NCBI GenBank assembly: GCA_903813345.2
Contig: CAIIXF020000013.1
Span: 191,008 to 255,007, forward strand
Source of the DNA: Owenia fusiformis
Lineage: Eukaryota; Annelida; Polychaeta; Sabellida; Oweniidae
Length of the DNA stretch: 64,000 nucleotides
Reading direction: 5' to 3'
A program made the translations under genes and the position numbers. This document shows, in pieces, positions 1 through 64,000 of the stretch. The notes beneath the pieces are model-generated. The model was not told where the DNA came from. It worked only from the letters and a program-made list of their open reading frames with translations, and made no database searches. The first letter of the stretch is position 1; each line of letters begins with the position of its first letter.

Positions 1-2250
1 GTTTTTCCCAAATTTTTTGGAAGGATAACCTACCGAAACCTATCACTTGCTTAGCCCTTGTTTTACACCATTCAATTTTCAGGAAATTTGAAATTTGTTG
101 CTTTAGCCATGAGTTCAGTGTAGCATCGCCATTCAAGTCATGAGGAACTGACAAACTCAATACTATAAGCATCAGAAGCATAATACATTTGAGTGCTGTA
201 CAGCAATAGTGTACACTCACCTTGTATTATTGCAAAGCTCTTTACAATGATAGCTCTGCCTCCTAGATGACGTGGTTCTAGAGCTGCATGTTCCCTGCTG
301 CTGCCCTCGCCATAGTTCTCATCTCCTTCTACAACCCATGAAAGTCCATTGGCCTGTATCAAAAGAGCAGCATGTTTGAAACTCTTAATTTCACATGTAA
401 TGTATGCATTAAAAATATGTTATTTACAATGTCCAAGACAACAAATGCATATGTATCAGGCTCCTGGTGACATTTTGTTACTTTGAAACTGGAAAGGGGT
501 TCACTCTAACCCCCTTGGCTACAGGCTTGTGGTACACCATCATACTCTCCAGTCAGATTATTACTACTTTTCAACTATCAATTTTACTACCTCCAACCAA
601 AACCTGTGAAGTTCATTTGCCTGCAGGAAATACAAAAGGCATGAACATATCTTATATATTTCAACAATTTAAATAGAAGACTATACTAACCCTATGAGTA
701 AATTGTTTGATATGTTGTCAAGATGTCCTCTGTATTTCAACAAACACAGCATAGAAATACTGTATATCATTATGTTTGGATAACTGAAATACAAACAGAT
801 ATTTTAGTGACATTCTGGTACATTACAAAGGCAACACGATTAAACATCACAGCTTCTAACAAATTATTTTCTAAGAACTATTGGTAATGATTTGTAATAC
901 TGATCGGGATCTACTACACTGATGAGCTTACATTATCAGCCACTAGTCATGCCCCATTACCCTCATTTACAATACATTAATAACTGTAAACTAAGGAAAC
1001 ATGTACTGATCATTAAGTCACAGCACTTCTTGTGATTTGTCTTTGACCTATGACTACTGACCTATACCGGCGATTACTAGAGTGCTGCTAACTCGATAAA
1101 AGGCTGGCGCTGGCTAGAATTGTCTATGGTTCTAGCCATGATAAAGATACCAGTTCTTCAACTCGACAATGGGAAGAACTGCTCTACCATAGTGACTAAT
1201 ATGTCATGATATGACATCTAAAGAGTCAATAAAAGATATACATATACTGATCATTAAGTAAATACCTTGATTAGAATACCCACAATTATCTTCCAGATCT
1301 TTGCCAGACCATTTCTCAAATGGTGTCAGTAGTTGTAGACGCTTACTTTCAGGGGATACGTCCACTTGGAGACTAGAGCCCTCTGCTGGTGGTTCCTGGT
1401 ATGTGTCCTGACCTGGAAGGTTGTCACCATATGGTGCGCCTAGCATAAACTTGGAACCTAAATAAATATGTTCATCACCATATGGTGTGTCTTCTAGCAT
1501 AAACTTTGAACCTAGATAAATATTAGGTAGTAAGCTAGCACCCAAAAATGTATTAGTTTGTGAACAAATTGAAATTCTTATGTATTTTTATGTGATACTT
1601 CAGAAAATTTTTGTCTGACGCGCCATATCCGGGGCGAACATTGTCAAATTGGGGTTTTCGACCCTAAAATGGAAAACTACAGGGGGTACTTTATCATCAT
1701 TGAATAAATCATTCAGTTGGTCTTCAATCATCATGATAATTATGCTGAGAATTGATGAGATCGTTTTGAGGTAAATATAGTCTAATTGATTTCACATCAA
1801 CAACTGAATACTTCAGTAGTATGTTTCAAGATTGTGGAAACCACAATTTTTGTTCAAAATATCCTTAATTTTGGCAAAACCTGAACATGTACATCATGTA
1901 GAATATGGATTTTTTCACGAATTCGGATCAATAGATATCAGAACATTTTAGCACACTCAAAATAACCAGTACAGATCAAACATTTAAATTTTCCAAACTT
2001 TAATACTGATAGAAGTAAAGGTCCCAGCCTCGTTTTGGTTTTCAAAATCTTGTAGAATCTGCGATTTGGGGGATGCATTGAATGATACGTTTAGAAGCTT
2101 ATATTTCTTTTAAAATATTCAAATTGATTTGAATAATCATCTTCAATTTCCTCCCGATAATCGATCCATTATAGATAAATTAATCGAAACAAGCATTCAA
2201 GTGTTTTAGGATACAAAAACAAAACAGAACAGATGTATGATAATTAGAGG

Positions 2251-2369
2251 TTATGTCACTATCGTTGCATATATGCCCGAGAGTTTCAGTGATAAACATG
2301 TTGGCCCGACCTTGGGAGGGACATTGATCACTGAGAACCGAGGGCATATGTGCAACTATAGTGACATAA
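2251..2369. mobile_element. ~120-bp foldback element, piece 1
   Basis: TTATGTCACTATCGTTGCAT with ATGCCCGAGAG pairs with the inverted GAGGGCATATGTGCAACTAT and GTGACATAA. The arms are about 45 bp around a short loop containing CCCGACCTTGGGAGGGAC. It is intronic. Equivalents are 19507-19626 and 51513-51632. The piece 1 loop lacks two bases (ATGTTGGCCC versus ATGTATGGCCC). Confidence 0.7.
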
Positions 2370-3420
2370 ACGATTTATAACATACCTATGATGATCTAGT
2401 CTGATCAGAAAGTACTGTTTTCTTATCTAATTGTCTAGCTATGGTTCGGAAATGATGATTTATCCCCATGTTTGTATCTTACGAGTCAATTTGACCTGGG
2501 CCTAATGTATGACGTAGTTCCAGCGCTTGACCAATGAGAAAGTTAGCAGGCGCGGGCTTTTCAAAAGTTATATTGACCCGCTGTCTTGTGAACACTCTAC
2601 ACTATACCTCATCATAGATATGTTATAATGATAATTATTGACCTATGATAAACATACCATTATGGGCAGTGAGTTCATCTATGAGTGGGCTGGTGATGTC
2701 ACAAATGTATGAGTGGCAAATTTGGCATCATTGCGACAAGTTAAGTTCCTGTTATATCACCCTTCTTGACATCACGTTTGTCAAGCACCATACCAACTGC
2801 CTCTCCAAGAACAACTGCCTACAATAAAGAAACAAACATATGGGCCATCATTGTAAATTCAAAGCCACATCTGATTCATAGTATTTCAGCTAATCTAAAT
2901 CTAAATTCCTAAGTTTATCAACATGGAAAAAGATGATTATGACATATCACACAAACATAGCTGCAACAAATGACTTGTGTTTGCTTAAAAAGGTTAAGAC
3001 GCTTGATCATTATGTTCAAGAGATGTTTGTTAAACTGATTCAATAATTTTGTAAAATGAGTTATTATTGTCCATACACGGTCTGCTCTGTCTTAAGAAAC
3101 AAGCCATATGCATATGAACAGCTCAAAGTATTGCTTTGATTTTTCCAGACATACATGTACCTGTCCATCTCTTTCAATGATAGCTCTGATCTGTTCTGAG
3201 CCAGGTGTGATTGTGAATGCAGCCTTGGCCTTGACACCTTTATCCAAACACTGCTTGGCTATAGCTGCAGATCTGCTCATTTCTTCATAACTGCTGTTGG
3301 TACAACTTCCAATCAGACCTAAACATTAAAATCAATAGAGTTAGCATTACAGAATTCAAATTTTTATATGTACTCAAAAGATTGTATGAAATTTTCAAAA
3401 TGAAATTACTTTATTATTTA

Positions 3421-3992
3421 CAGGTTGAGCCAAAAAATGTAACCCTAACGAATCTTAATAACTCAGTCATCCAGTATGGGCATTGAGTCATATTTGGCAC
3501 AACTGACCCTTGTTCAATGTACTTTCATTCTTTTAAGTTTCATTTTTCTACTCAAAAGGTTATGATTTTATGGCCATTTTACAAAACATGCTCCAAATGC
3601 CAAAACATACCAAAACCACACAATATGAATCGCCAAAATTTTACCTTTGGGGCTATTTCAAATATAATGTGTACATTAAAAACTCTTAGAAGCATCAGAG
3701 AGTTGAAACAAGATATTAGAAGGGAAATGAGAGCCTTTACACAAGATATTTGTGAGCGTGTAGTCAGAAAACTTCACCCGATGTGTTAAATTTGATTCAA
3801 AACACAAGACTGTCATTTTGAGGATGTTTTTTAAAATGGCTATAAAATCATGACCACTTTGAGTGGACCCATGAAACTTAGTAAAATGAAAAACATTGAA
3901 CAAGGGTAACTTTTGCCAAATATGATTTTAACCCCATACTGGATAAGGAAGTTATAAAGATTCGTTTGGGTTACATTTTTTGGCTCGCCCTG
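3421..3992. mobile_element. 572-bp TIR element (mariner/Tc1-type MITE), piece 1
   Basis: Outer ends CAGGTTGAGCC and GGCTCGCCCTG are flanked by TA on both sides. The inverted ends extend about 150 bp each, through AAAAAATGTAACCC and GAACAAGGG. The middle reads as an ORF only by chance. The TA target and CAGG..CCTG ends fit Tc1/mariner-derived elements. It lies in an intron of the aconitase pseudogene, between the 3161 and 4167 blocks. Confidence 0.8.
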
Positions 3993-4494
3993 TACTTGGG
4001 TGGTTCTGTCAGATTTCAATGTTATTTCGCAATCTTATTGTATCTTAAGACAGAATTAATTCAATATTCAGGAAGTTCATATAAACTTCCTACATAGATA
4101 CCATGTGGGGTAACTCTCAAAATATTTCTACACAAGCTGTAACATTGAAATGAAGTTGCTACATACCAACTTTGATGTCCAAAGGCCAGTCATTCTTCTT
4201 GGTTCTGTCTCCAAGCTTCTGTATGGGATGTGGAAAGTCAGAAGTGAATGGACCATTGACACGGGGCTCAAACTGGAATACAGAAAATAGCAATTCGAAA
4301 TTTGAATTGTTCCATTATTTATAATATGGCAACTGGCACAGATGCTTTATTTTTTCAACCATACTATTAAAAGTTATGAAATTAAAACTGATATTACAAC
4401 ACAAACAGATAATAATTAAATAAAAACACAGAATTAAACTCCGTGCCAAGAACTGATGGCCAAGAACTGATGAAAAGTCAGTCCACCCCAGTAG

Positions 4495-4550
4495 GGATTG
4501 AACCTACTATCCCAGATACATAAGTACCTACGACTACACAATACTTCAGG
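4495..4550 (-). repeat. tRNA-like T-arm / B-box fragment (possible SINE remnant)
   Basis: The minus strand has GTAGG-TTCAATC-CCTAC, a perfect 5-bp stem with a 7-base loop like a tRNA T arm, and a B-box-like GGTTCAATCCC. No acceptor partner, D arm or anticodon arm could be folded, so it is not a working tRNA gene. The copy in piece 2 (T arm at 17370-17386) has loop TTCAAGC; piece 3 has it at about 53756-53812. Confidence 0.3.
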
Positions 4551-5110
4551 CTTTGGCATTCTATCCATGAATTAATCTATAACAGATGTGCTCACTTTAT
4601 TATGCCTAACTCACTCAGATTTATCTCAATAAGCTGATCATATTAACATCATTTATCTGCAGCAAGGAGATCTTGCCTCACATCATCAGCAGTCTCACCT
4701 ATACCTGCAGCCAATACACATTCAATTTAACTAAAATTATTTTATGTCTATGTTAATATTACATCCTTCTCACAGGACAGATTGCTATAAAGTAATAATA
4801 TAAAAAGGATTGGACAGAAGGGTTATGCCTATGGTAAGCCTCTCCAAGTGAATAGCAATGCTTTAAATGCCCCATATAAACTTATATCATAGTCTTATCA
4901 TGAAAAAGTAATATTTGAATGATTAAACTATATGTCAAACTTTGCATGGTGCCTTTAACCATGTCTTACTCCAAAGATTAGAGAACAATGGACATGATTA
5001 ACTTTTGAAAGACTATCTTGAAACTAGACAACAGCAACGCCAAAGCATAGCAAATCCCATTGAACAGTCATGGCTGGCATACTAACAAACAAAGAATATA
5101 GCAAAAATAA

Positions 5111-5520
5111 TGGCGACCTTCTACCAAAAGTGTCATTAGACAGTGTGCCATGCTTATAGTATTCACATACCAAATATGAACAAAATCGCTCCACTACTTT
5201 TCGAGTTATAGTAAAATATGTTAAAATGGCGGCCATTTTTCAAAATGGCCGCCTTCTACCAAAAGTGGCATTAGACAGTGTGCCATGCTTATTGTATTCA
5301 CATACCAAATATGAACAAAATTGCTCCACTACTTTTCCAGTTATAGTAAAATACGTTAAAATGGCAGCCATTTTTCAAAATGGCCACCTTCTACCAAAAG
5401 TGTCATTAGACAGTGTGCCATGCTTATAGTATTCACATACCAAATATGAACAAAATCACTCGACTACTTTTCGAGTTACAGCAAAAATCATAAAATAACG
5501 AGTAAAGGCCCCCTTTTACA
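5111..5520. repeat. 135-bp tandem array, three units
   Basis: CCTTCTACCAAAAGTG recurs at 5117, 5252 and 5387, exactly 135 bp apart. Each unit carries CAAATATGAACAAAATC and AAAATGGC..CCATTTT. The same array is at about 16370-16760 and 54374-54780. Short ORFs through it simply reflect the repeat. Confidence 0.9.
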
Positions 5521-5639
5521 AGATGGCTGCCATGTGCTTCTTTAATATTTACATTTCTAGCTTTATTAATGTCCTTTATAACTTTTTACATATAAAACAT
5601 ATTGCTATTACAGTTTTACATATTGCACCTAAATAACTG

Positions 5640-5905
5640 TAAAATCGGCATTAAAATGGCCATCATTTTTAAATGAGCGGCCATTTTCAAATGAGCGGCC
5701 ATTTTGAAAATCGGCTTTCGAGCAGAACTTTTAAAACCATAGGGTATATGTGTACAAAATATGAACAAAATCGGGTCAACTGTATTTGAGTTATTGCCTG
5801 GACGGACATATGTACGTACGTACGTATGGACGGATGGACGGACGGACAGGCAGACGGATGGAGGTGTTCCCTATATCCCTCCGAACTTTGTTCGATGGGA
5901 TAGTA
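5640..5905. repeat. ACGG-type microsatellite with terminal hairpin module
   Basis: A GGACGGAC run follows the 135-bp array and is followed by CCCTATATCCCTCCGAAC..GTTCGATGGGATA. That end can fold, because CGAAC pairs with GTTCG and ATCCC with GGGAT. The same hairpin and microsatellite combination is at 15945-16080, 55060-55165, 11755-12050, 61140-61250, 24425-24520 and 46720-46820. Confidence 0.7.
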
Positions 5906-7019
5906 AATGTATATTGACAGTATACATTATACATTTTTCACCATGTTTGGTCAGTCATCGGTGAGGGTATAACAAATACATGTATACCTGATCTGTTGGT
6001 GGCATCAAAATATGCTTTCATACAGTGGTTGTACGGAAACAAAGATGTTGCAGCACCTATTTCAGCTCCCATGTTCCATATTGTATCCATACCTAAACAG
6101 TAATAAACACATGTATAAAGGTTGATTGCCCGGAAATATTTACACAATTGAACATGTTGAACAACTAATATACATACTTTTTGTGGCTTGGTTGAATGGC
6201 TATGAATCCCAAGTTCCGATGTGTCTCATCAAGAAGACAATAGAGTGACAGAGATTATGTCAAGCCGAGTTTATAATTTTTGTGCGAATTTTCTTCTTGG
6301 ATCGAACAATTTCATTTTAATTTGATTAACTTATATTACGATAGGTGGCAAAAGGTCTCAAGGTAGGTCAAGTGACACAAAACAACAGATCATATGACTG
6401 CTCAGCTTCAATTTTGCTCTTGCAGTCGAAACTGAAACTTCTTTCATCGATATCTAGGTAATTTTTTCAGCCTCCAGTATTTTGACAAAAGTAAGTTCAG
6501 GTCGTAGCCATTCTTCGAGGCACATTTGAGGCACCAACGATTTTTTGAGTTTTTCTAAGGAATCATTCCCGATTTCCAGCTATTGCACCTTTAATTGATT
6601 AGTTATGTTTTTGGTATTATAGAATAAAGGGACTTATTTTCCAAACACTGGCTATGATACTGAACAGTATAAAATATAATTATTCATACTCATGTACATG
6701 TATGATCAAAATCTTTTAATGCATTTTTATTTTTTTCTACTGAAAATGCAATTTTAAAGTGCGCAAATATAAATCACTTGAAACAAGAATATGCACATAT
6801 AGTAAAACAAGTGGAAGATATTTGAAAATACTTGAAGTGGTTTACCTTTACAAGATATGGAGTGCAAGCCTGGGCCAAAGTATTCTATAATGGCTCCTGT
6901 GCCTCCTTTAACTGTGAGGATTGCCTGTCACCTTAAGGATACCATCCTTTGGTGAGGTCCACTCACTCAACTCTCCTGTCAGCTTAACTCCAATCATCTA
7001 CAGTCAAAACATAAACATG

Positions 7020-8985
7020 TACCGTATTCTCCCTAATGAGTCCACAGCCATTTTCAGGGAGGGGGTCAAAAATGAAACAAGAACACAAATGTGTACAATA
7101 TGTCCCCACCAATGGGTGATCCCGTCAAATGGTTATCCCGAAAATGAGTAGACAAGACTTTACCATTACAATTTTGGGACGGAAAATGCAAATGACCACT
7201 TTAAAATTTACCCAGAATGCCAAAAAATTAGTCAGCTCTAGATTTTCATACTAGAAACCATCCCTGAAAATTTGAAATTGATCAGTCAAACAGTAAACCA
7301 GAAAACGCGTAAACAAGACTTTACAGACAAGATTTTAGGACAGAAAAATCCAAAATGGCTGCCTTGACATTTGCCCAGAATGCCTAACAAGAACACAAAT
7401 GTGTACAAAATGTCCCCACCCAATGGTTATCCTAAAAATGAGAAGACAAGACTTTACCGACACAACTTGAGGACAGAATATCCAAAATGGCCACCTTTAA
7501 ATTTACCTAGAATGCCCAAAAATTAGTCAGTTCTAGATTTTCATACCAAGAACCACCCCTGAAAATTTGAAATTGATCCCTCACACAGTTAACCAGAAAA
7601 CATGTAAACAAGACTTTACAAACAAGATTTTAGGACGGAAAATCCAAAATGGCTGCCTTGACATTTATCCAGAATGCCAAAAAACTAATATCTTCTAGAT
7701 TTTCATACTCAGAATCATCCCTGAAAACTTGAAATTGATCTACCAAACGGTTCACCTGGAAATGCGCAGACAAAACTTAACAGACAAGATTTTAGGACAG
7801 AAAATCCAAAATGGCTGCCTTGACATTTATCCAGAATGCCAAAATCTATTCAGATCTAGATTTTCATACTAAGAATCATCCCTGAAAATTTGAGATTGAT
7901 TTACCAAACAGTTCACCTGGAAATGCGTAGACAAGACTTGACAGACAAGATTTTAGGACAGAAAATCCAAAATGGCTACCTTGACATTTACCCAGACTGC
8001 CAAAAAACTGATCAGATCTAGATTTTCATACTAAGAATCATCCCTGAAAATTTGAAATTGATCTACCGCAGAGTTCACCTAAAAATACGTAGACAAGACT
8101 TTACGGGCAAGATTTTAAGATGGAAAATCCAAAATGGCTGCCTCGACATTTACCCAGAATGCCAAAAAACTAATCGGATCTAGATTTTCATACTAAGAAT
8201 CATCCCTGAAAATTTAAAATTGATCTACCAAATGGTTCACCTAAAAACGCGTAGACTAGACTTTACAGGCAAAATTTTAAGACAGAAAATCCAAAATGGC
8301 TGCCTTGACATTTATCCAGAATACCAAAAAACTAATCAGATCTAGATTTTCATACTAAGAATCATCCCTGAAAATTTGAAATTGATTTACCAAACAGTTC
8401 ACCTGGAAATGCGTAGACAAGACTTTACAGACAAGATTTTAGGACAGAAAATCCAAAATGGCTACCTTGACATTTACCAAGACTGCCAAAAAACTGATCA
8501 GATCTAGATTTTCATACTAAGAATCATCCCTGAAAATTTGAAATTGATCTACCACAGAGTTTACCTAAAAAAGCGTAGACAAGACTTTACGGGCAAGATT
8601 TTAAGATGGAAAATCCAAAATGGCTGCCTTGACATTATCCAAAATGCCAAAAAACTAATCAGATCTAGATTTTCATCCTAGGAATCATTCCTGAAAATTT
8701 GAAATTGATCTACCGATTAGTTCATCTGGAAATGCGTAGACAAGACTTTACAGACAAGATTTTAGGACGGAAAATCCAAAATGGCTGCCTTGACATTTAC
8801 CCAGAATGCCCAAAAACTAATCAGATCTAGATTTTCATACTAAGAATCATCCCTGAAAATTTGAAATTGATCTACCAAATGGTTCACCTAAAAATGCGTA
8901 AAAAAGACTTTAAAGACAAGATTTTAGGACAGAAAATTTCAAAATGGCCGACAGGCTTTTACAACAAAGTACACCTGACCTGTAC
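7020..8985. repeat. ~162-bp tandem array, about 11 units, piece 1
   Basis: Units centred on CCAAAATGGCTGCCTTGACA and TCTAGATTTTCATACTAAGA recur with a period of 161-163 bp, for example AATGGCT at 7648, 7809, 7970, 8296 and 8457. The array lies between the 6846 exon and a GACAGACAGATG run. It resembles the core repeats of pearl/Helitron-like elements. Equivalent 56350-58235. Confidence 0.9.
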
Positions 8986-9353
8986 GGATGGACAGACAGA
9001 CAGATGGACAGACAGACAGATGGACAGACAGACAGATAGACAGACAACCAGACGGACGGACGCGCCTAGGCCGACAATATGGCCCCACACTATGTGGTGG
9101 GGAGATAAAAAGCAACAGTGAAGCCGTTTTTCTTGAAGTTTGCAGACAAGGATTTTAGCATTTGACTTCAAAATGGCCGACAGGAAGTAGGTATCGAGTT
9201 AATTTTTTTCATCCACATCTGTATGCACTCATAAGTTAGCCCTGAAAATTTGAAGGTGATATCTGTAGCGGTTTTGGAGAAAACTGCCGGATGTACAGAC
9301 AGACGGACGCGCCTAGCCTGACAATATGGCCCCACACTATGTGGTGGGAACAT
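8985..9353. repeat. GACA/GACAGATG microsatellite and duplicated terminal hairpin
   Basis: A GACAGACAGATG run is followed by CGCCTAG..CCGACAATATGG and CCCCACACTATGTGGTGGGG, a short hairpin. The same tail recurs about 240 bp later at 9305-9353 after a single AGACAGACGG. The equivalent is 58250-58605, with fewer microsatellite units. Confidence 0.75.
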
Positions 9354-10329
9354 AAAAAATGAAGCAAAATGTGCACTTTTTCTATAATCAATTGCATTTT
9401 CTTGTATATGGATGAAGATATTTTATTGTAAGTTAAAGATCTGTTACATCTTTTCCCAGCAATACAAAATGTAAAAATCAAAATATTTGCTCAATCTAAA
9501 ATTGATTGAGTAGCTTCTAACAAGCTTTCGAACTTTGACACTGATAAAATAAAATATGCTGAATCAGCACTTTTGAGCCTGAACTGTCACCTGCAGGCAA
9601 TAATCAATAACAATGCAACATAGAAATTTCATCAATACTGATACAACTAATGCACAAAATATAACTAGTATGACAGTATGCTTTAATTTGACATTGATGT
9701 CTACTTACCCCCCCCCCCTCCATAACCAAAGGCCAGATATTTAGTTAATTTTTTTCTTTTTTCTTATCTAATAAATCCTGTATGAACTCAAAAATGTTTA
9801 TATGTATTGAGGCATGAATTATGTATTTCCTTGATTTTATTTCAGTTCTAGAACCATCTTGGAAGAGAAGATATACAATAACATGTAATTAGCATAGAAC
9901 TTAAAGAATGTCTATATTTGGACATCAAAGGGTTATAATCATACTTTTCTTTAGGCAGACATCATTAAAATAACTTATAAGCCTAAAATATAACATATTT
10001 AGATTGTGGCAATATAAGATTCCCCAGAATTAAGGAGGATTATTTCATTATAATTTTTTGAAATTTTACCCCTCTGAAAATTATGGGTGGGGGGTACAAA
10101 ATCAATTTTCTCCCCAAAAACAGCTCTAGAACTTTGTACATGCGGATAAAAATGTTTTAAATGGTTCACAGATCCACTAAATAAAATTTACGATTTGTTC
10201 CATCCAAAATCATAAGGGCCATTTTTGTAATGAATTCGGTGTACTAATACCTGTTAATTCATAAATACATTCACTAAAATATAATTATCTCAGAAATAGC
10301 AATTAGAGGATAAGTTAGCTATGACTTAC
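9354..10329. other. Intron sequence without recognised features
   Basis: AT-rich and largely unique, with a C-run near 9710. No exon, RNA or repeat was identified. Equivalent 58606-59594. Confidence 0.5.
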
Positions 10330-11039
10330 CTTTGGGCATTTCAGTTCCCAGGGTATATCAGCCACGACATCTACAGCATCAACGCTACTCTATATAGGCC
10401 CCTAAGACCTCCTCCATTGGAGATGTGGCCGTCTGTACCGATCATCAAAAGACCTGGGAAAGCATGATTCTCAAGGACAATCTATAATAGACAGGCAATA
10501 CCTATTTATTTTGTTTACAAATATTGTGAAAGATTAAATGTTCCAATTGTTTAGCTTTCATTATGCATTCATTCCCAAAGAGACAAATGTAATCTACATT
10601 TCACAATTTAGAAAAGATTCCAGCATACACAAAGGGAGAATTAATTTCATTGAACAAAATAAACAATGAATGCACTCAAGATGTTTCATTGGTTAATATC
10701 ACAAAATAAATAAATTCCTCATAGGAGACAGTAAGCCCTTTGACATTCAACAAGATTTTATAAAGATGTAACTGGTGAATGATTCCACTGCAAGGCTTCC
10801 AGAAGCCAACATCATACTGTACAAGTGGTATTTAATCTGAGTGGTTAATTTGTTGAATGGTCAAATTATATCATTTTCCTAATTTTAATTTTCCCAATGG
10901 CAAGAAACTGTCAATCCTGACAGGAGAATACATTGGTAATCAGTATAAAGATAACCAGAACAAGGGCAACGGCAACGCCAAAGCGTAGCGAATCCCATCG
11001 AACAGCCATGGATGGCATTTTTACAAACAAAGTATATAG

Positions 11040-11500
11040 CAAAAATGGCAGGCATTTTTCAAAATGGCCGCCTTCTACCAAAAGTGTCATTAGACAGTGT
11101 GCCATGCTTACAGTATTCACATCGCAAATATGAACAAAATTGCTTTACTACTTTTCGAAATATTATAAAATACATTAAAATGGCGGCCATTTTTCAAAAT
11201 GGCCACCTTCTACTCAAAGTGTCATTAGACAGTGTGCCATCCTTATAGTATTCACATACCAAATATGAACAAAATCGCTTCACTACTTTTCGAGTTATAG
11301 TAAAATAGGTTAAAATGGCGGCCATTTTGAAAAATGGCCGCCATTTTGAAAAATGGCCACCTTCTACCAAAAGTGTCTTCAGACAGTGTGCAAGGTTTAT
11401 AGTATTCACATACCAAATATGAACATAATCGCTCCACTACTTTTCGAGTTACAGCAAAAATCGTAAAATAACGAGTAAAGGCCGCCATTTTTCAAGATGG
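11040..11500. repeat. 135-bp-type tandem array upstream of the exons, piece 1
   Basis: Same family as 5111-5520, with CCTTCTAC(C/T) units. It is followed by an ACGG run and the CCCTATATCCCTCCGAAC hairpin at 12008-12050. Piece 3 (60300-60870) has one more unit and a T-run insertion near 60460. Confidence 0.85.
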
Positions 11501-11772
11501 TTGCCATGTGCTTCTTTAATATCTACATTTCTAGCTTTATTAATGTCCTATATAATCTTTTTACATCTAAAACATATTGCTATTACAGTTTTACATATTG
11601 CACCTAAATTACTGTAAATTCGGCACTAAAATGGCCGCCATTTTGAAATGAGCAGCCATTTTGAAAATCGGCTTTCAAGCAGAACTTCTACCCCCATAGG
11701 GTATATGTGTACAAAATATGAACAAAATCAGGCTAACGGTATTTGAGTTATTGCCCGGACGGACGGACGGAC

Positions 11773-12001
11773 GTCTTGTAATATATAGATACGGATGGAC
11801 GGACGTCTTGTAATATATAGATACACTGTCCCACATGTTTTGTTAAAGAGCAACTGAAGCATACAATCTTTCCACAAAGATAAATTCAGACCAACATTTA
11901 GATATCTACATCATATAGGTAGATTATAATTGATTTTATTTATTTGTCATATCCAGTATTTAATTTATTATAGGTTTAAACCCATATTAATATTGAAGTC
12001 A
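11773..12001. repeat. ~235-bp segment present only in piece 1
   Basis: Within the ACGG run, GTCTTGTAATATATAGATAC occurs twice (about 11773 and 11807), followed by unique DNA up to CACGGAGGCG. Piece 3 goes directly from the ACGG run to GGAGGCG at 61211. Confidence 0.75.
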
Positions 12002-12258
12002 CGGAGGCGTTCCCTATATCCCTCCGAACTTCGATCGATGGGGTAACAAATCATTTTCACTGGAAAACTTAAAACTTTGCCTATGATAGACATGTATTCA
12101 AAATTGAATAATATAATAAATACTTTAAGACTACAAATATGGTTGGTCTTTTAGACATGGTCAGTCTTTTACACATTTTCCTCAAATCCTGTTTTGATGT
12201 TAGCTGTGGAAAAAGCTTCGTAAAACCCATATGACTAGTGTCTACTTATTGTACTTAC

Positions 12259-12371
12259 CTTCCAGTCCATCCTGGGGGAAACTATATCACATGTCAAGGT
12301 GTCACCTTATGGATTCTAGCTCACTCTGTGACAGCACCTCTGCCAGTGTCACTGCAGATCAGTGTGAGATA
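12259..12371 (-). pseudogene. Decayed duplicate of the 14.85-15.0 kb exon-like block
   Basis: The minus strand reads LICSDTGRGAVTE then stops, matching LICSDTDKGAVTIE at the end of piece 1. It rejoins at ATTAGGTG..CCAGGATG and the same GGAAG/GTAAGTAC donor, but about 57 bp are missing and stops are present. The equivalent in piece 3 is 61465-61577. It is an ancient tandem duplication about 2.6 kb apart with one copy decayed. Confidence 0.55.
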
Positions 12372-13581
12372 CACTTAGCTCCACACTAAAATTCATATTG
12401 AAAATGCTGTTACTTTTAACAGTGTACATTAAACAATCCTAAGGAGCTTACATTTATGACTCAAACCTCTTTTTGTAATTTTTAAATAAAAATCATGTGG
12501 CTTTTTGGAAAGGCCAATTAATAAATCATAATAGCAGTTGTTATTCATCCAACACTAATTTTCCATGTTAAATTAACTGATGAATGGATATTTGATAATA
12601 TATTAAGAGGTTATTTTCTTCTTTGGCATCCACTTGATTTTAAAGCTTAACACATTGTAGAAATGTAGGAGCCACAGCCCTGTGCTCAGAGTGTAGATTC
12701 TTTACAGGAATGGATATCCTGACTTTCAACCAAAAATATTAATTTGTAGTCTCAAACTTTGAGAAACTTGGCACAGCTTGTGAGCTAGTTTGATGACCTT
12801 GAATATTTTACTTTTCAGAACTCTTGTCATTAAACTGACCAAAATTTGAATCCAAAATCAATTACATTTTTGAAGGTCAACTAAAGGTCAAATCTCAAAA
12901 ATAAGGTCATATTTGAACTGAAAAATAGGTTGAAATGAAACAGGTTGAAAAATAACCTATTTTTAACACATCAATCATCATTGACATCTAATATCTCAGA
13001 AACAGTAACAATTTAATGTTGAGCAATTTGAAGAGAATCTAGTTACAATTAATTTATTACAAGAAATAATGAAGTATAAGGACTTTGAGAAACTTGGGAA
13101 ACTTGCCATAAACTTGATATATGAGAAACTATTTTTTCAAATGTTATTGAGCAAAGAACAGGTCCATTTAACAGGCCATTGGTCCACTTAGACTTTTTCC
13201 AAAAAACTCATTATTCCATTTACCTTTAAAACTGATTGCAATTTGTAGATAAACCTTTTTCTTGAGATGTGCAATTTCAAAAAGTGGCATTAGTTTTCAG
13301 TTTCTTTGAAAAATTGGCAGTAAGAACCCCTATCACAAGGCTGTCTGAATATGGGTACACACTATGTTTACCATCAAAATAATATCAAAGCTTACCATTA
13401 CATACACTTTATTATATGGAACATATGGCATACAAGCATTCAGAGGGTAGAACATTTAACAAAATCTAGCTATTTATGAAGTTTACTAATGCAAATCTGG
13501 AAAACATTGTCATTTTTTGTTTAATTTTTTTATCAAGTTTTAGCATGGTGCTCATTTCCTTTCGTTGAAAATATAACCATC
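12372..13581. other. Non-coding AT-rich stretch with an AGGTCA-rich dispersed repeat
   Basis: Bases 12730-13090 (AAACTTGG, GACCAAAATTTGAATCCAAA, AGGTCAACTAAAGGTCAAA) resemble 38310-38510 in the LINE-rich region, so they belong to a dispersed repeat. Otherwise nothing was recognised. Equivalent 61578-62750. Confidence 0.45.
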
Positions 13582-13676
13582 AGCCCACACTCCCACAAAA
13601 AAGATATTGAAACTGTATAATGCAGAGAAAGTAAAGTAGCTTCTCTGCAAATATCATTTTTGTGGGAGTGTGGGCT
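13582..13676. mobile_element. 95-bp foldback hairpin, piece 1
   Basis: AGCCCACACTCCCACAAAAA pairs with TTTTTGTGGGAGTGTGGGCT. Inside, GCAGAGAA pairs with TTCTCTGC. It is a near-perfect nested hairpin. Equivalent 62751-62845. Confidence 0.75.
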
Positions 13677-14845: not shown

Positions 14846-14850
14846 CTTAC

Positions 14851-14934
14851 CTTCCAGTTCATCCTGAAGGAGACTATGTGACCTGCCCAGGTATCACCTA
14901 ATGGTTTGTTGCCATGGTCATGTCTCAGATCTGT
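14851..14934 (-). CDS. Exon-like block of an unidentified gene (84 bp)
   Basis: On the minus strand an acceptor-like TTCTTATAG is followed by 28 codons, TDLRHDHGNKPLGDTWAGHI and VSFRMNWK, and then GTAAGTAC, a strong donor. The same frame upstream of the acceptor reads LICSDTDKGAVTIELDTLL up to the gap, interrupted only by the TAG of the splice site. The protein family was not recognised and it is not aconitase. A decayed duplicate lies at about 12259-12370. The second N gap-bounded piece does not contain it, and piece 3 ends before the matching site. Confidence 0.45.
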
Positions 14935-51512: not shown

Positions 51513-51632
51513 TTATGTCACTATCGTTGCATATATGCCCGAGAGTTTCAGTGATAAACATGTATGGCCCGACCTTGGGAGGGACATTGATCACTGAGAA
51601 CCGAGGGCATATGTGCAACTATAGTGACATAA
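51513..51632. mobile_element. ~120-bp foldback element, piece 3
   Basis: Third copy of the same intronic foldback. Confidence 0.7.
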
Positions 51633-52683
51633 ACGATTTATAACATACCTATGATAATCTAGTCTGATCAGAGAGTACTGTTTTCTTATCTAATTGTCTA
51701 GCTATGGTTCGGAAATGATGATTTATCCCCATGTTTGTATCTTACGAGTCAATTTGACCTGGGCCTAATGTATGACGTAGTTCCAGCGCTTGACCAATCA
51801 GAAAGTTAGCAGGCGCGGGCTTTTCAAAAGTTATATTGACCCGCTGTCTTGTGAACACTCTACACTATACCTCATCATAGATATGTTATAATGATAATTA
51901 TTGACATATGATAAACATACCATTATGGGCAGTGAGTTCATCTATGAGTGGGCTGGTGATGTCACAAATGTATGAGTGGCAAATTTGGCATCATTGCGAC
52001 AAGTTAAGTTCCTGTTATATCACCCTTCTTGACATCACGTTTGTCAAGCACCATACCAACTGCCTCTCCAAGAACAACTGCCTACAATAAAGAAACAAAC
52101 ATATGGGCCATCATTGTAAATTCAAAGCCACATCTGATTCATAGTATTTCAGCTAATCTAAATCTAAATTCCTAAGTTTATCAACATGGAAAAAGATGAT
52201 TATGACATATCACACAAACATAGCTGCAACAAATGACTTGTGTTTGCTTAAAAAGGTTAAGACGCTTGATCATTATGTTCAAGAGATGTTTGTTAAACTG
52301 ATTCAATAATTTTGTAAAATGAGTTATTATTGTCCATACACGGTCTGCTCTGTCTTAAGAAACAAGCCATATGCATATGAACAGCTCAAAGTATTGCTTT
52401 GATTTTTCCAGACATACATGTACCTGTCCATCTCTTTCAATGATAGCTCTGATCTGTTCTGAGCCAGGTGTGATTGTGAATGCAGCCTTGGCCTTGACAC
52501 CTTTATCCAAACACTGCTTGGCTATAGCTGCAGATCTGCTCATTTCTTCATAACTGCTGTTGGTACAACTTCCAATCAGACCTAAACATTAAAATCAATA
52601 GAGTTAGCATTACTGAATTCAAATTTTTATATGTACTCAAAAGATTGTATGAAATTTTCAAAATGAAATTACTTTATTATTTA

Positions 52684-53255
52684 CAGGTTGAGCCAAAAAA
52701 TGTAACCCTAACGAATCTTAATAACTCAGTCATCCAGTATGGGCATTGAGTCATATTTGGCACAACTGACCCTTGTTCAATGTACTTTCATTCTTATAAG
52801 TTTCATTTTTCTACTCAAAAGGTTATGATTTTATGGCCATTTTACAAAACATGCTCCAAATGCCAAAACATACCAAAACCACCCAATATGAATCGCCAAA
52901 ATTTTACTTTTGGGGCTATTTCAAATATAATGTGTACATTAAAAACTCTTAGAAGCATCAGAGAGTTGACACAAGATATTAGAAGGGAAATGAGAGCCTT
53001 TACACAAGATATTTGTGAGCGTGTAGTCAGAAAACTTTACCCGATGTGTTAAATTTGATTCAAAACACAAGACTGTCATTTTGAGGATGTTTTTTAAAAT
53101 GGCTATAAAATCATGACCACTTTGAGTCGACCCATGAAACTTAGTAAAATGAAAAACATTGAACAAGGGTAACTTTTGCCAAATATGATTTTAACCCCAT
53201 ACTGGATAAGGAAGTTATAAAGATTCGTTTGGGTTACATTTTTTGGCTCGCCCTG
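52684..53255. mobile_element. 572-bp TIR element, piece 3
   Basis: Same element in the piece 1 orientation, with TA flanks intact. Confidence 0.8.
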
Positions 53256-54373
53256 TACTTTGGTGGTTCTGTCAGATTTCAATGTTATTTCGCAATCTTA
53301 TTGTTTCTTAAGACAGAATTAATTCAATATTCAGGAAGTTCATGTAAACTTCCTACATAGATACCATGTGGGGTAACTCTCAAAATATTTCTACACAAGC
53401 TGTAACATTGAAATGAAGTTACTACATACCAACTTTGATGTCCAAAGGCCAGTCATTCTTCTTGGTTCTGTCTCCAAGCTTCTGTATGGGATGTGGAAAG
53501 TCAGAAGTGAATGGACCATTGACATGGGGCTCAAACTGGAATACAGAAAATAGCAATTCGAAATTTGAATTGTTCCATTATTTATAATATGGCAACTGGC
53601 ACAGATGCTTTATTTTTTCAACCATACTATTAAAAGTTATGAAATTAAAACTGATATTACAACACAAACAGATAATAATTAAATGAAAACACAGAATTAA
53701 ACTCCGTGCCAAGAACTGATGGCCAAGAACTGATGAAAAGTCAGTCCACCCCAGTAGGGATTGAACCTACTATCCCAGATACATAAGTACCTACGACTAC
53801 ACAATACTTCAGGCTTTAGCATTTTATCCATGAATTAATCTATAACAGATGTGCACACTTTATTATGCTTAACTCACTCAGATTTATCTCAATAAGCTGA
53901 TCATATTAACATCATTTATCTGCAGCAAGGAGATCTTGCCTCACATCATCAGCAGTCTCACCTATACCTGCAGCCAATACACATTCAATTTAACTAAAAT
54001 TATTTTATGTCTATGTTAATATTACATCCTTCTCACAGGACAGATTGCTATAAAGTAATAATATAAAAAGGATTGGACAGAAGGGTTATGCCTATGGTAA
54101 GCCTCTCCAAGTGAATAGCAATGCTTTAAATGCCCCATATAAACTTATATCATAGTCTTATCATGAAAAAGTAATATTTGAATGATTAAACTATATGTCA
54201 AACTTTGCATGGTGCCTTTAACCATGTCTTACTCCAATGATTAGAGAACAATGGACATGATTAACTTTTGAAAGACTATTTTGAAACTAGACAACAGCAA
54301 CGCCAAAGCATAGCAAATCGCATTGAACAGTCATGGCTGGCATACTAACAAACAAAGAATATAGCAAAAATAA

Positions 54374-54780
54374 TGGCGACCTTCTACCAAAAGTGTCATT
54401 AGACAGTGTGCCATGCTTATAGTACTCACATACCAAATATGAACAAAATCGCTCATCTACTTTTCGAGTTATAGTAAAATATGTTAAAATGGCGGCCATT
54501 TTTCAAAATGGCCACCTTCTACCAAAAGTGGCATTAGACAGTGTGCCATGCTTATTGTATTCACATACCAAATATGAACAAAATTGCTCCACTACTTTTC
54601 CAGTTATAGTAAAATACGTTAAAATGGCAGCCATTTTTCAAAATGGCCACCTTCTACCAAAAGTGTCATTAGACAGTGTGCCATGCTTATAGTATTCACA
54701 TACCAAATATGAACAAAATCACTCGACTACTTTTCGAGTTACAGCAAAAATCATAAAATAACGAGTAAAGGCCCCCTTTT
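54374..54780. repeat. 135-bp tandem array, piece 3
   Basis: Third copy of the same array, again three units. Confidence 0.9.
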
Positions 54781-55249
54781 TCAAGATGGCTGCCATGTGC
54801 TTCTTTAATATTTACATTTCTAGCTTTATTAATGTCCTTTATAACTTTTTACATATAAAACATATTGCTATTACAGTTTTACATATTGCACCTAAATAAC
54901 TGTAAAATCGGCATTAAAATGGCCATCATTTTTAAATGAGCGGCCATTTTCAAATGAGCGGCCATTTTGAAAATCGGCTTTCGAGCAGAACTTTTAAAAC
55001 CATAGGGTATATGTGTACAAAATATGAACAAAATCGGGTCAACTGTATTTGAGTTATTGCCTGGACGGACATATGTACTACGTACGTACGGATGGATGGA
55101 CGGATGGACAGGCAGACGGATGGAGGTGTTCCCTATATCCCTCCGAACTTTGTTCGATGGGATAGTAAATGTATATTGACAGTATACATTATACATTTTT
55201 CACCATGTTTGGTCAGTCATCGGTGAGGGTATAACAAATACATGTATAC

Positions 55250-55354
55250 CTGATCTGTTGGTGGCATCAAAATATGCTTTCATACAGTGGTTGTACGGAG
55301 ACAAAGATGTTGCAGCACCTATTTCAGCTCCCATGTTCCATATTGTATCCATAC
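55250..55354 (-). pseudogene. Aconitase exon with [17 protein letters not shown], intact
   Basis: This 105-bp block reads [19 protein letters not shown] then [10 protein letters not shown], close to the conserved block of mitochondrial aconitases. No lesion is present. Phases match both neighbours (2+102+1). Equivalents are 5988-6092 and 15758-15862. Confidence 0.9.
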
Positions 55355-56107
55355 CTAAACAGTAATAAACACATGTTTAAAGGTTGATTGCCTGGAAATA
55401 TTTACACAATTGAACATGTTGAACAACTAATATACATACTTTTTGTGGCTTGGTTGAATGGCTATGAATCCCAAGTTCCGATGTGTCTCATCAAGAAGAC
55501 AATAGAGTGACAGAGATTATGTCAAGCCGAGTTTATAATTTTTGTGCGAATTTTCTTCTTGGATCGAACAATTTCATTTTAATTTGATTAACTTATATTA
55601 CGATAGGTGGCAAAAGGTCTCAAGGTAGGTCAAGTGACACAAAACAACAGATCATATGACTGCTCAGCTTCAATTTTGCTCTTGCAGTCGAAACTGAAAC
55701 TTCTTTCATCGATATCTAGGTAATTTTTTCAGCCTCCAGTATTTTGACAAAAGTAAGTTCAGGTCGTAGCCATTCTTCGGGGCACATTTGAGGCACCAAC
55801 GATTTTTTGAGTTTTTCTAAGGAATCATTCCTGATTTCCAGCTATTGCACCTTTAATTGATTAGTTATGTTTTTGGTATTATAGAATAAAGGGACTTATT
55901 TTCCAAACACTGGCTATGATACTGAACAGTATAAAATATAATTATTCATACTCATGTACATGTATGATCAAAATCTTTTAATGCATTTTTATTTTTTTCT
56001 ACTGAAAATGCAATTTTAAAGTGCACAAATATAAATCACTTGAAACAAGAATATGCACATATAGTAAAACAAGTGGAAGATATTTGAAAATACTTGAAGT
56101 GGTTTAC

Positions 56108-56259
56108 CTGTACAAGATATGGAGTGCAAGCCTGGGCCAAAGTATTCTATAATGGCTCCTGTGCCTCCTTTAACTGTGAGAATTGCCTGTCACCTTAAGG
56201 ATACCATCCTTTGGTGAGGTCCACTCACTCAACTCTCCTGTCAGCTTAACTCCAATCAT
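56108..56259 (-). pseudogene. Aconitase exon with IGVKLTGELS, one-base insertion
   Basis: It starts MIGVKLTGELSEWTSPKDG and continues ILKVTG, then one extra base (GGC-A-ATT) shifts the frame. The remainder, [18 protein letters not shown] and SISCTG, reads only after skipping that base. The length of 152 is exactly one more than the 151 needed to keep phase with both neighbours. The same insertion is in copy 1 (6846-6997). There is no homopolymer at the site, which argues against a common long-read error. Confidence 0.88.
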
Positions 56260-56349
56260 CTACAGTCAAAACATAAACATGTACCGTATTCTCCCTAATG
56301 AGTCCACAGCCATTTTCAGGGAGGGGGTCAAAAATGAAACAAGAACACA

Positions 56350-58235
56350 AATGTGTACAATATGTCCCCACCAATGGGTGATCCCGTCAAATGGTTATCC
56401 CGAAAATGAGTAGACAAGACTTTACCATTACAATTTTGGGACGGAAAATGCAAATGACCACTTTAAAATTTACCCAGAATGCCAAAAAATTAGTCAGCTC
56501 TAGATTTTCATACTAGAAACCATCCCTGAAAATTTGAAATTGATCAGTCAAACAGTAAACCAGAAAACGCGTAAACAAGACTTTACAGACAAGATTTTAG
56601 GACAGAAAAATCCAAAATGGCTGCCTTGACATTTGCCCAGAATGCCTAACAAGAACACAAATGTGTACAAAATGTCCCCACCTATGAGTGATCCCGTCCA
56701 ATGGTTATCCTAAAAATGAGAAGACAAGACTTTACCGACACAACTTGAGGACAGAATATCCAAAATGGCCACCTTTAAATTTACCTAGAATGCCCAAAAA
56801 TTAGTCAGTTCTAGATTTTCATACCAAGAACCACCCCTGAAAATTTGAAATTGATCCCTCACACAGTTAACCAGAAAACATGTAAACAAGACTTTACAAA
56901 CAAGATTTTAGGACGGAAAATCCAAAATGGCTGCCTTGACATTTATCCAGAATGCCAAAAAACTAATATCTTCTAGATTTTCATACTCAGAATCATCCCT
57001 GAAAACTTGAAATTGATCTACCAAACGGTTCACCTGGAAATGCGCAGACAAAACTAAACAGACAAGATTTTAGGACAGAAAATCCAAAATGGCTGCCTTG
57101 ACATTTATCCAGAATGCCAAAATCTAATCAGATCTAGATTTTCACACTAAGAATCATCCCTGAAAATTTGAAATTGATTTACCAAACAGTTCACCTGGAA
57201 ATGCGTAGACAAGACTTGACAGACAAGATTTTAGGACAGAAAATCCAAAATGGCTACCTTGACATTTACCCAGACTGCCAAAAAACTGATCAGATCTAGA
57301 TTTTCATACTAAGAATCATCCCTGAAAATTTGAAATTGATCTACCGCAGAGTTCACCTAAAAATGCGTAGACAAGACTTTACGGGCAAGATTTTAAGATG
57401 GAAAATCCAAAATGGCTGCCTCGACATTTGCCCAGAATGCCAAAAAACTAATCGGATCTAGATTTTCATACTAAGAATCATCCCTGAAAATTTGAAATTG
57501 ATCTACCAAACGGTTCACCTGGAAACGCGTAGACTAGACTTTACAGGCAAAATTTTAAGACAGAAAATCCAAAATGGCTGCCTTGACATTTATCCAGAAT
57601 ACCAAAAAACTAATCAGATCTAGATTTTCATACTAAGAATCATCCCTGAAAATTTGAAATTGATTTACCAAACAGTTCACCTGGAAATGCGTAGACAAGA
57701 TTTTAGGACAGAAAATCCAAAATGGCTACCTTGACATTTACCAAGACTGCCAAAAAACTGATCAGATCTAGATTTTCATACTAAGAATCATCCCTGAAAA
57801 TTTGAAATTGATCTACCACAGAGTTTACCTAAAAATGCGTAGACAAGACTTTACGGGCAAGATTTTAAGATGGAAAATCCAAAATGGCTGCCTTGACATT
57901 TATCCAAAATGCCAAAAAACTAATCAGATCTAGATTTTCATCCTAGGAATCATTCCTGAAAATTTGAAATTGATCTACCGATTAGTTCATCTGGAAATGC
58001 GTAGACAAGACTTTACAGACAAGATTTTAGGACGGAAAATCCAAAATGGCTGCCTTGACATTTACCCAGAATGCCCAAAAACTAATCAGATCTAGATTTT
58101 CATACTAAGAATCATCCCTGAAAATTTGAAATTGATCTACCAAACGGTTCATTAAAAATGCGTAAAAAAGACTTTAAAGACAAGATTTTAGGACGGAAAA
58201 ATCCAAAATGGCCGACAGGCTTTTACAACAAAGTA
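56350..58235. repeat. ~162-bp tandem array, piece 3
   Basis: Same array. Small differences include a 20-bp indel near 56685 and a shortened unit near 57690. Confidence 0.9.
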
Positions 58236-59594
58236 CACCTGACCTGTACGGATGGACAGACAGACAGATGGACAGACAGACAGATAGACAGACAACCAGA
58301 CGGACGGACACGCCTAGGCCGACAATATGGCCCCACACTGTGGTGGGGAGATAAAAAGCAACAGTGAAGCCGTTTTTCTTTAAGTTTGCAGACAAGGATT
58401 TTAGCATTTGACTTCAAAATGGCCGACAGGAAGTAGGTATCGAGTTAATTTTTTTCATCCACATCTGTATGCACTCATAAGTAAGCCCTGAAAATTTGAA
58501 GGTGATATCTGTAGCGGTTTTGGAGAAAACTGCCGGATGTACAGACAGACGGACGCGCCTAGCCTGACAATATGGCCCCACACTATGTGGTGGGGACATA
58601 AAAAATGAAGCAAAATGTGCACTTTTTCTATAATCAATTGCATTTTCTTGTATATGGATGAAGATATTTTATTGTAAGTTAAAGATCTGTTACATCTTTT
58701 CACAGCAATACAAAATGTAAAAATCAAAATATTTGCTCAATCTAAAATTGATTGAGTAGCTTCTAACAAGCTTTCGAACTTTGACACTGATAAAATAAAA
58801 TATGCTGAATCAGCACTTTTGAGCCTGAACTGTCACCTGCAGGCAATAATAACAATGCAACATAGAAATTTCATCAATACTGATACAACTAATGCACAAA
58901 ATATAACTAGTATGACAGTATGCTTTAATTTGACATTGATGTCTACTTACCCCCCCCCCCCCTCCATAACCAAAGGCCAGATATTTAGTTAATTTTTTTC
59001 TTTTTTCTTATCTAATAAATCCTGTATGAACTCAAAAATGTTTATATGTATTGAGGCATGAATTATGTATTTCCTTGATTTTATTTCAGTTCTAGAACCA
59101 TCTTGGAAGAGAAGATATACAATAACATGTTATTAGCATAGAACTTAAAGAATGTCTATATTTGGACATCAAAGGGTTATAATCATACTTTTCTTTAGGC
59201 AGACATCATTAAAATAACTTATAAGCCTAAAATATAACATATTTAGATTGTGGCAATATAAGATTCCCCAGAATTAAGGAGGATTATTTCATTATAATTT
59301 TTTGAAATTTTACCCCTCTGAAAATTATGGGTGGGGGGTACAAAATCAATTTTCTCCCCAAAAACAGCTCTAGAACTTTGTACAAATAAAGAATTTTTTT
59401 TTAATTTCTTTATTTGAAATTTTAAATGGTTCACAGATCCACTAAATAAAATTTACGATTTGTTCCATCCAAAATCATAAGGGCCATTTTTGTAATGAAT
59501 TCGGTGTACTAATACCTGTTAATTCATAAATACATTCACTAAAATATAATTATCTCAGAAATAGCAATTAGAGGATAAGTTAGCTATGACTTAC

Positions 59595-59746
59595 CTTTGG
59601 GCATTTCAGTTCCCAGGGTATATCAGCCACGACATCTACAGCATCAACGCTACTCTATATAGGCCCCTAAGACCTCCTCCATTGGAGATGTGGCCGTCTG
59701 TACCGATCATCAAAAGACCTGGGAAAGCATGATTCTCAAGGACAAT
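59595..59746 (-). pseudogene. Aconitase exon with GTDGH..NGGG and IPWELKCPK, 7-base deficit
   Basis: The first half reads [10 protein letters not shown] then [15 protein letters not shown]. This is the substrate-binding GTDSHTPNGGG region, with the key Ser replaced by Gly. The second half reads [18 protein letters not shown], but in another frame. The block is 152 bp where family spacing predicts 159, so about 7 bases are missing between the halves. In the first frame this gives an early stop. The copy 1 equivalent is 10330-10481. Borders are AG upstream and GTAAGT downstream. Confidence 0.85.
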
Positions 59747-60299
59747 CTATAATAGACAGGCAGTACCTATTTATTTTGTTTACAAATATTGTGAAAGATT
59801 AAATGTTCCAATTGTTTAGCTTTCATTATGCATTCATTCCCAAAGAGACAAATGTAATCTACATTTCACAATTTAGAAAAGATTCCAGCATACACAAAGG
59901 GAGAATTAATTTCATTGAACAAAATAAACAATGAATGCACTCAAGATGTTTCATTGGTTAATATCACAAAATAAATAAATTCCTCATAGGAGACAGTAAG
60001 CCCTTTGACATTCAACAAGATTTTATAAAGATGTAACTGGTGAATGATTCCACTGCAAGGCTTCCAGAAGCCAACATCATACTGTACAAGTGGTATTTAA
60101 TCTCAGTGGTTAATTTGTTGAATGGTCAAATTATATCATTTTCCTAATTTTAATTTTCCCAATGGCAAGAAACTGTCAATCCTGACAGGAGAATACATTG
60201 GTAATCAGTATAAAGATAACCAGAACAACGGCAACGCCAAAGCGTAGCGAATCCCATCGAACAGCCATGGATGGCATTTTTACAAACAAAGTATATAGC

Positions 60300-60870
60300 A
60301 AAAATGGCAGGCATTTTTCAAAATGGCCGCCTTCTACCAAAAGTGTCATTAGACAGTGTACCATGCTTACAGTATTCATATCGCAAATATGAACAAAATT
60401 GCTTCACTACTTTTCGAATTATTATAAAATACATTAAAATGGCGGCCATTTTCAAAATTTTTTTTCAAAATGGCCACCTTCTACTCAAAGTGTCATAGGA
60501 TAGTATGTCATGCTTTTAGTATTCACATACCAAATATGAACAAAATCGCTCCACTACTTTTCCAGTTATAGTAAAATACGTTAAAATGGCGGCCATTTTT
60601 CAAAATGGCCGCCTTCTACCAAAAGTGTCATTAGACAGTGTGCCATCCTTATAGTATTCACATACCAAATATGAACAAAATCGCTTCACTACTTTTCGAG
60701 TTATAGTAAAATAGGTTAAAATGGCAGCCATTTTGAAAAATGGCCACCTTCTACCAAAAGTGTCTTCAGACAGTGTGCAAGGTTTATAGTATTCACATAC
60801 CAAATATGAACATAATCGCTCCACTACTTTTCGAGTTACAGCAAAAATCGTAAAATAAGGAGTGAAGGCC
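60300..60870. repeat. 135-bp-type tandem array, piece 3
   Basis: Homologous to 11040-11500 with an extra unit at about 60480-60610. An ACGG/ACGT run (61140-61215) and terminal hairpin follow. Confidence 0.85.
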
Positions 60871-62750: not shown

Positions 62751-62845
62751 AGCCCACACTCCCACAAAAAAGATATTGAAACTGTATAATGCAGAGACAG
62801 TAAAGTAGCTTCTCTGCAAATATCATTTTTGTGGGAGTGTGGGCT
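62751..62845. mobile_element. 95-bp foldback hairpin, piece 3
   Basis: Same hairpin as 13582-13676, with a single A/C difference in the inner stem loop. Confidence 0.75.
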
Positions 62846-64000
62846 CACCACTAAAACTGAACTTTTATGATGAAAATAAGGCTGACTGGTTTATGTTTTC
62901 AATATGGCTGCTAACCTGGGCATACATGTATACTACATAACTGCATGTACAGATTAGGCCATTCAAAATTAATTATATGTTTGCATTCTGATGAAGGGCC
63001 TTCATTATATTAATAAAAACTACAAAACCTTTATTTATTTAAAGGGTTTTATATATTAACAAGTACAGAGTACATGGGAGCATTTTGTTTTTTCTGAAAA
63101 CATGGAATTAAGTGACATTAATTATTAAAAATCTTTGAATGGCCTAAGTGTTTTTCTAAATAGGGAATAAGTAGAAATTATTTTAGGCAATCCTTTAAGT
63201 GTCATGCCATTTATATATGATGCTGCCTTAGATTTTATATTATATTTTGAAATTCGAATATGGGAATTGCAAATTGGCAAATAACTTTAAAACTAAGTCT
63301 CCATACAGACATTTAATTTCAAATTCCAATGCAAATGCCAATGGGCATTTATTAAAAGTGACCCTATAACTACTTAGAATATGGCAAACATGTTTAGAAA
63401 ACTGGCGAGAAGCAATTGAAATCAGAAAATCCATTCTCATGGAAGTGCCCTTGTGTGCATTTAATTGCAGCCATTTTATCCTAATTGCCCATGGGCATTT
63501 AAAATAATAATCACATCCTAACTCTCAAAACATGCTTGTATTAGGATACTGTTGGAGTTTCAAAAGGCAACAAGAACATTCATTTTTGAAACAGGAAAAT
63601 TTAGTCCCCCCCAAAAAATGCCCATATGGGGATTTATTCTCAAGATTTTCATGTAATTGCCCGTGAGAATTTATTAAAAATATTTTTATTTCCATATACA
63701 TGTCTTATTATCAGTCATCATCAAATTAAGCCAATTGCTTTCATTTCTTGTGTTAGAAAACAGCAAAATTTTGACAAAAATAGCAACTCTCAAAGTTGAC
63801 CTTTAAACCACCCTAATGTCAAGGTCAAATGTCAAAACTCTCAGAAATCACATTTTAAGTAATAAGTTATACTTCCTCTTCAATTCCATGTCAATATATA
63901 CTTGTTTTGTAGGGGGGCTAAAAGAGGGGTTTACCGCCACCTGTCCCTTCAAGAACTGCATAGCAGTCTTAATTTGTGCGGCCAATGACCAATGGCTCGG

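Follow-up and report, generated by a model that had tools for sequence, protein, structure and literature searches.

Layout of the window and its scaffold

The window, the whole stretch of 64,000 nucleotides analysed here, covers C13:191008-255007 of the Owenia fusiformis assembly GCA_903813345.2, where C13 is contig CAIIXF020000013.1, an unplaced scaffold of 659,916 bases (~660 kb). The assembly contains 498,259,871 bases (~498 Mb) in 525 contigs. Among the probe matches, megabase coordinates occur on C1-C12 only, and these are called the large contigs below. The accessible portion of the genome publication (PMC9977687) gives 12 chromosome-scale scaffolds and 505.8 Mb for Owenia fusiformis.

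Three pieces set on two 500-N gaps compose the window, in the orientations + - + and 98-99% alike. The first piece (P3, window 1-15000, C13:191008-206007, plus) is one version of a sequence block and measures 15,000 bases if the window start is taken as its left edge. The second (P4, window 15501-36500, C13:206508-227507, minus) is another version of exactly 21,000 bases, reversed relative to P3 and P5. The third version (P5) occupies window 37001-64000 in plus orientation with its left part, and as a whole (C13:228008-279007, plus) has exactly 51,000 bases, extending to the right beyond the window. The two spacers are located at window 15001-15500 and 36501-37000. The first-pass annotation had placed the orientation flips at these positions, and N runs of 500 each lie exactly there; the exact 21,000 bases of the middle piece and the exact 500 N of both gaps, which it had also stated, are found as well.

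Four pairings occur within the window. Window 2-6352 aligns with 21874-15501 (minus, 98.6% identical), 15501-24115 with 55614-47049 (minus, 98.3%), 34647-35335 with 37686-37001 (minus, 98.1%) and 1-11459 with 49264-60711 (plus, 98.0%). These lengths and identities are far beyond chance level, and the alignments agree with the earlier pairing of 15501 with 6352 and of 37001 with 35335. The earlier description as nested inverted repeats stands for the inverted arms and fails for strict nesting, the order alternating + - +. The stretch of P4 past the start of P5 (window 35335-36500, plus) is a tandem array with a period of ~477. Two further arrays differ in length between P3 and P5, namely a period-162 array (window 7431-8948 in P3, 56404-58212 in P5) and a period-135 array (window 11042-11339 and 60312-60846, respectively).

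The window pattern is part of a longer run, in which P1-P7 are all versions of one block, with the orientations - + + - + + -. The first-pass count of three versions holds for the window, and the run continues on both sides of it in C13. To the left are located P1 (C13:89711-140507, minus, 50,797 bases) and P2 (C13:141008-181007, plus, 40,000 bases), and to the right P6 (C13:282805-306804, plus, 24,000 bases) and P7 (C13:307305-343304, minus, 36,000 bases). An eighth piece of 36,797 bases (C13:52414-89210), left of P1, has only scattered repeats in common with the block versions. Four of the six joins among P1-P7 turn the orientation, and all four turns sit on a 500-N run; the two non-turning joins carry longer N runs. 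Between 41 and 345 kb of C13, six of nine N runs are exactly 500 long and the remaining three are longer.

The window holds 15 open reading frames of at least 130 amino acids, 12 of which cross the Ns; the other three (131, 135 and 141 amino acids) have no Pfam match at E 0.01, and an Rfam scan of the window yielded nothing at the gathering cut-off. Several elements were observed nearby. An inverted ~2-kb pair, 99.5% identical (C13:41429-43413 and C13:52814-54791), flanks a long N run. In P1, an open frame on the minus strand (C13:139438-140505) runs for 356 codons up to the cut end of the piece and encodes many C2H2 zinc fingers (Pfam). P6 carries a frame of 244 codons with a zf-RVT domain (C13:288223-288954, minus), situated in a 2.4-kb stretch absent from P5, and is probably a retroelement fragment. 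In addition, inverted ~0.9-kb pairs, 83-84% identical, occur in P6 (C13:297119-301422) and P7 (C13:318385-324013) inside segments absent from P5, and may perhaps be the terminal repeats of inserted elements.

Cut ends and piece lengths

Six of the eight pieces between N runs in C13:41-345 kb have lengths that are exact multiples of 1,000 (40,000; 15,000; 21,000; 51,000; 24,000 and 36,000), the lengths depending on the bordering N runs, which exceed 500 on one side of five of the eight pieces and may there not be true gaps. Runs of 500 N delimit only three of the eight at both ends (50,797; 21,000; 36,000). Under uniform residues the probability of six on-grid lengths among eight is 2.8e-17; leaving out P3, with its assumed left edge, five of seven lengths are on the grid (2.1e-14, uniform residues). 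The two off-grid lengths, 36,797 (C13:52414-89210) and 50,797 (C13:89711-140507), have the residue 797 in common, perhaps from a shifted bin grid. The six unplaced contigs with block matches and a measured length include three whose lengths are multiples of 1,000 (C104, 29,000; C100, 29,000; C432, 13,000) and three others (C415, C482 and C499). The editing bin of 3D-DNA is 1 kb. Spacers of 500 N at joins are used in published 3D-DNA assemblies of other genomes, according to the parts of those descriptions that are accessible.

The other versions allow the cut ends to be inspected directly. P1, P2, P3 and P5 are uninterrupted at the position where P4 starts (window 15501), and P1, P2 and P5 are uninterrupted at the position where P3 ends. 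A probe placed past the P3 end matches the unplaced contig C432, which is exactly 13,000 bases long, with query base 168 falling on C432 base 13,000. The last base of P3 pairs with 255174 in P5, 111071 in P1 and 164620 in P2, and the end base of C432 pairs with 255175, 111070 and 164621, respectively. The abutment of P3 and C432 is thus exact, with neither gap nor overlap, in all three versions that span it. Because the two ends are adjacent in P1, P2 and P5, P3 and C432 were once one contig that was later cut. At window 15,000 the sequence truly continues into C432 instead of into the inverted piece at 15,501. At the far end of C432, the ten terminal bases match P5 at 268213-268222. A continuation of this far end into P7, predicted before the sequence was retrieved, was refuted, the match stopping 170 bases short.

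No N-free piece contains a second copy of the block or a block turn (eight pieces, up to 51 kb). Repeats within these eight pieces, of at least 500 bases and either more than 3 kb apart or inverted, amount to six pairs, each below 1 kb and none of them more than 87.4% alike.

The nested inverted repeat is a scaffolding artefact and not a biological feature. The automated cutting and joining at rounded coordinates proposed in the first-pass annotation gains strong support from the six of eight pieces on the 1,000 grid and by the continuation of P3 in the 13,000-base C432. The arrangement very probably arose by cutting, flipping and 500-N joining during Hi-C scaffolding, acting on real, near-identical versions of a multi-copy block. 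Hi-C scaffolding, presumably of the 3D-DNA kind, would have broken long contigs on a 1,000-base grid; some of the cut pieces would have stayed as separate contigs, while others would have been flipped and joined by 500-N spacers into the unplaced scaffold C13, so that each orientation turn in the window would be one such join. Scaffolds made by 3D-DNA/Juicebox with misjoin cutting show the same 500-N spacers, the same pieces in bin multiples, cut fragments kept as separate contigs and orientation errors among near-identical contigs; they differ from the present case in that the software behind this assembly is inferred. The pieces themselves are real sequence: a block measuring 50 kb or more, present in no fewer than five versions that along most of the sequence diverge by roughly 1-2%. 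This would be a multi-copy block proper, possibly with both alleles of some copies, the paralogy being the likely reading. Near-identical copies would make Hi-C reads ambiguous, and the block would then be neither placed nor ordered correctly.

Relations and number of the versions

Five versions (P1-P5) overlap at one point, C13 240-246 kb. In a 5-kb region where all five are present, substitutions separate the members of each of the ten pairs by 0.88-1.68%, transitions being as frequent as transversions or more so. After gapped columns and columns with more than two states were dropped, 151 two-state sites remained, 125 of them private to one version and 26 informative. Twenty of the 26 separate P1 and P2 from P3, P4 and P5, and six conflict. 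The relations also shift along the block. Between P1 and P2 the difference, mostly 1-2%, drops to 0.2-0.5% over C13 168-173 kb; between P2 and P5 it is as small as 0.1% near C13 176 kb. Such shifts suggest that sequence may have been exchanged between versions, or that the contigs switch between versions within their length.

Probes along the block match in different numbers of places. The core probes at C13 237, 241 and 243 kb have full-length matches in C13 only (4, 5 and 5, respectively, among the matches listed). For the probes at 255 and 257 kb, matches at or close to full length are confined to C13 and C432, and for the probe at 276 kb to C13, C104 and C499; on C2 the latter is matched in part, as is one further probe. 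The probe at 271 kb matches in 11 places, including C2:32,590,654 (99%), C104, C415, C482, C100 and C499; nine of these matches span all or nearly all of the probe, and two are partial or split. The right part of the block has a copy on C2, near 32.59 Mb. Two other probes touch repeats: one, with matches of 95% on C2 and 93% on C7, seemingly falls on a dispersed repeat, and another, holding a dispersed repeat, has 96% matches on C9, C4, C1 and C11 that cover ~900 of its 1001 bases.

A control search with forkhead genes, covering one gene family, gave 38 matches, all of them on the large contigs, with no duplicates on unplaced contigs. Forkhead domains were found on nine of the 12 large contigs and include two tight clusters, one of four and one of three. 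This distribution is in line with the accessible part of an earlier study (PMC9539403), in which the forkhead genes of Owenia fusiformis lie on nine of 12 chromosomes and foxQ2 is tandemly duplicated on two chromosomes. For this one gene family, the result argues that duplicates are not kept genome-wide in the assembly.

The first-pass annotation had described the pieces as uncollapsed haplotigs. Its cutting and shuffling of near-identical versions holds, and alleles alone do not suffice, as five versions overlap at one point. That all versions are alleles of a single locus, retained by the assembler and then shuffled by scaffolding, is unlikely. Alleles could differ to the extent seen here (~1-2%, plus insertions and deletions), cutting and shuffling are demonstrated, and the reading would hold if several animals were pooled. 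However, a diploid locus has at most two alleles, against the five distinct versions at one point (assuming one diploid donor) and the eleven places, two of them partial or split, matched by the 271-kb probe. Moreover, probes at C13 237-245 kb lack a full-length chromosome copy among the matches listed, and the forkhead genes lack duplicates on unplaced contigs. The accessible methods text of the genome publication (PMC9977687) further states that the long reads came from the sperm of one male, and that purge_haplotigs was run before Juicer and 3d-dna.

With two alleles per locus, five versions overlapping at one point require at least three loci, given a single diploid donor and faithful contigs. 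The preferred reading is a block truly present in several copies, perhaps including alleles, that could not be placed by scaffolding. Segmental duplications can remain unplaced in draft assemblies, and the present case resembles them in that large near-identical blocks are piled into unplaced scaffolds.

The Helentron and the history of the block

P5 harbors a single open frame of 3,134 codons on the minus strand (C13:258534-267935), 3.5 kb to the right of the window. Its Pfam domains are OTU, Herpes_teg_N, DUF6570, Helitron_like_N, PIF1 and an Exo_endo_phos endonuclease, so that Rep (PF14214), a PIF1-type helicase (PF05970) and a C-terminal endonuclease (PF03372) are united in one frame. By its domain content, the frame is identified as a Helentron, a rolling-circle transposon. 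The corresponding frames comprise 2,670 codons in P1 and, in P2, two overlapping frames of 2,465 and 650 codons. Two kinds of deubiquitinase are a known feature of Helentron architecture (PMC9741609, as far as its accessible text goes). The same domain set, namely the Helitron-type Rep, PIF1 helicase, C-terminal endonuclease, OTU and Herpes_teg_N, is shared with known Helentrons carrying OTU and herpes-tegument-like (VTD) deubiquitinases, as described in the accessible parts of PMC9741609 and PMC4067079, whereas the P5 element differs from them in its one open frame of 3,134 codons.

A 1.3-kb Helentron probe found 33 matches, 29 of them off the large contigs. Six are near 99% identity, eight near 91%, 14 at 80-82%, and five are lower or partial. 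The four on large contigs lie on C2, C3, C5 and C6, with 91% identity on C5 and 81% on C3 and C2. Comparison of the Helentron frame with the C5 copy over 975 codons gives a dN/dS of 0.13, and between the P1, P2 and P5 frames it is 0.34-0.39. Non-coding fragments beside the Helentron show only 77-84% identity when C5 and P5 are compared. The copy at C2:32.58 Mb (C2:32582001-32592000) differs in its likeness to P5 from one side to the other: the Rep side is ~80% identical, and the deubiquitinase side together with ~5 kb beyond it is 95-98% identical. This sharp change of identity within the frame suggests that modules may have been exchanged between copies.

One tentative reading is that a block of at least 50 kb with an intact giant Helentron may have been amplified recently to several genomic places, with modules exchanged between its copies. 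Quite unlikely is the reading in which the whole block is a single giant mobile element, namely a Helentron carrying long cargo, and the versions are separate insertions. The 3,134-codon frame lies inside the block, 28 of the 33 probe matches fall in bands near 99, 91 and 81% identity, dN/dS is as low as 0.13 over the 975 codons compared with C5, and the split of the versions is mostly tree-like, all of which would suit such an element. In contrast, ~25 kb to the left of the Helentron frame, with interruptions, are common to P1, P2 and P5, so the copies have shared rather than independent flanks, and three probes left of the frame have full-length matches in C13 only, among the matches listed. 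Hardly credible, lastly, is a true palindrome or amplicon-like inverted duplication cluster with its joins falling in gaps by chance: the sequence is multi-copy in the assembly and the scaffold order sets copies head to head, but all four orientation turns sit on a 500-N run, none of the eight N-free pieces of up to 51 kb contains a block turn or two block arms, six of the eight lengths are on the 1,000-base grid, and the sequence cut off at window 15,000 is in reality continued in C432.

The scaffolding origin of the arrangement bears on the use of this genome. Anyone using the scaffold as it stands would see a palindrome or a cluster of inverted duplications, and the misarrangement would pass into structural-variant, synteny and copy-number analyses of the genome. 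Such a cut can be demonstrated from the sequence itself, without reads, by bin-sized pieces together with an unplaced contig whose end abuts exactly, as verified in the other versions. If the multi-copy reading is true, the assembly also conceals a block of considerable size that was amplified recently and contains a seemingly intact Helentron. Should the amplification reading also be true, Owenia fusiformis would harbor either a giant modular rolling-circle family or a segmental duplication driven by the Helentron, and the copies may be concentrated in a compartment of the genome that resists placement in assemblies.
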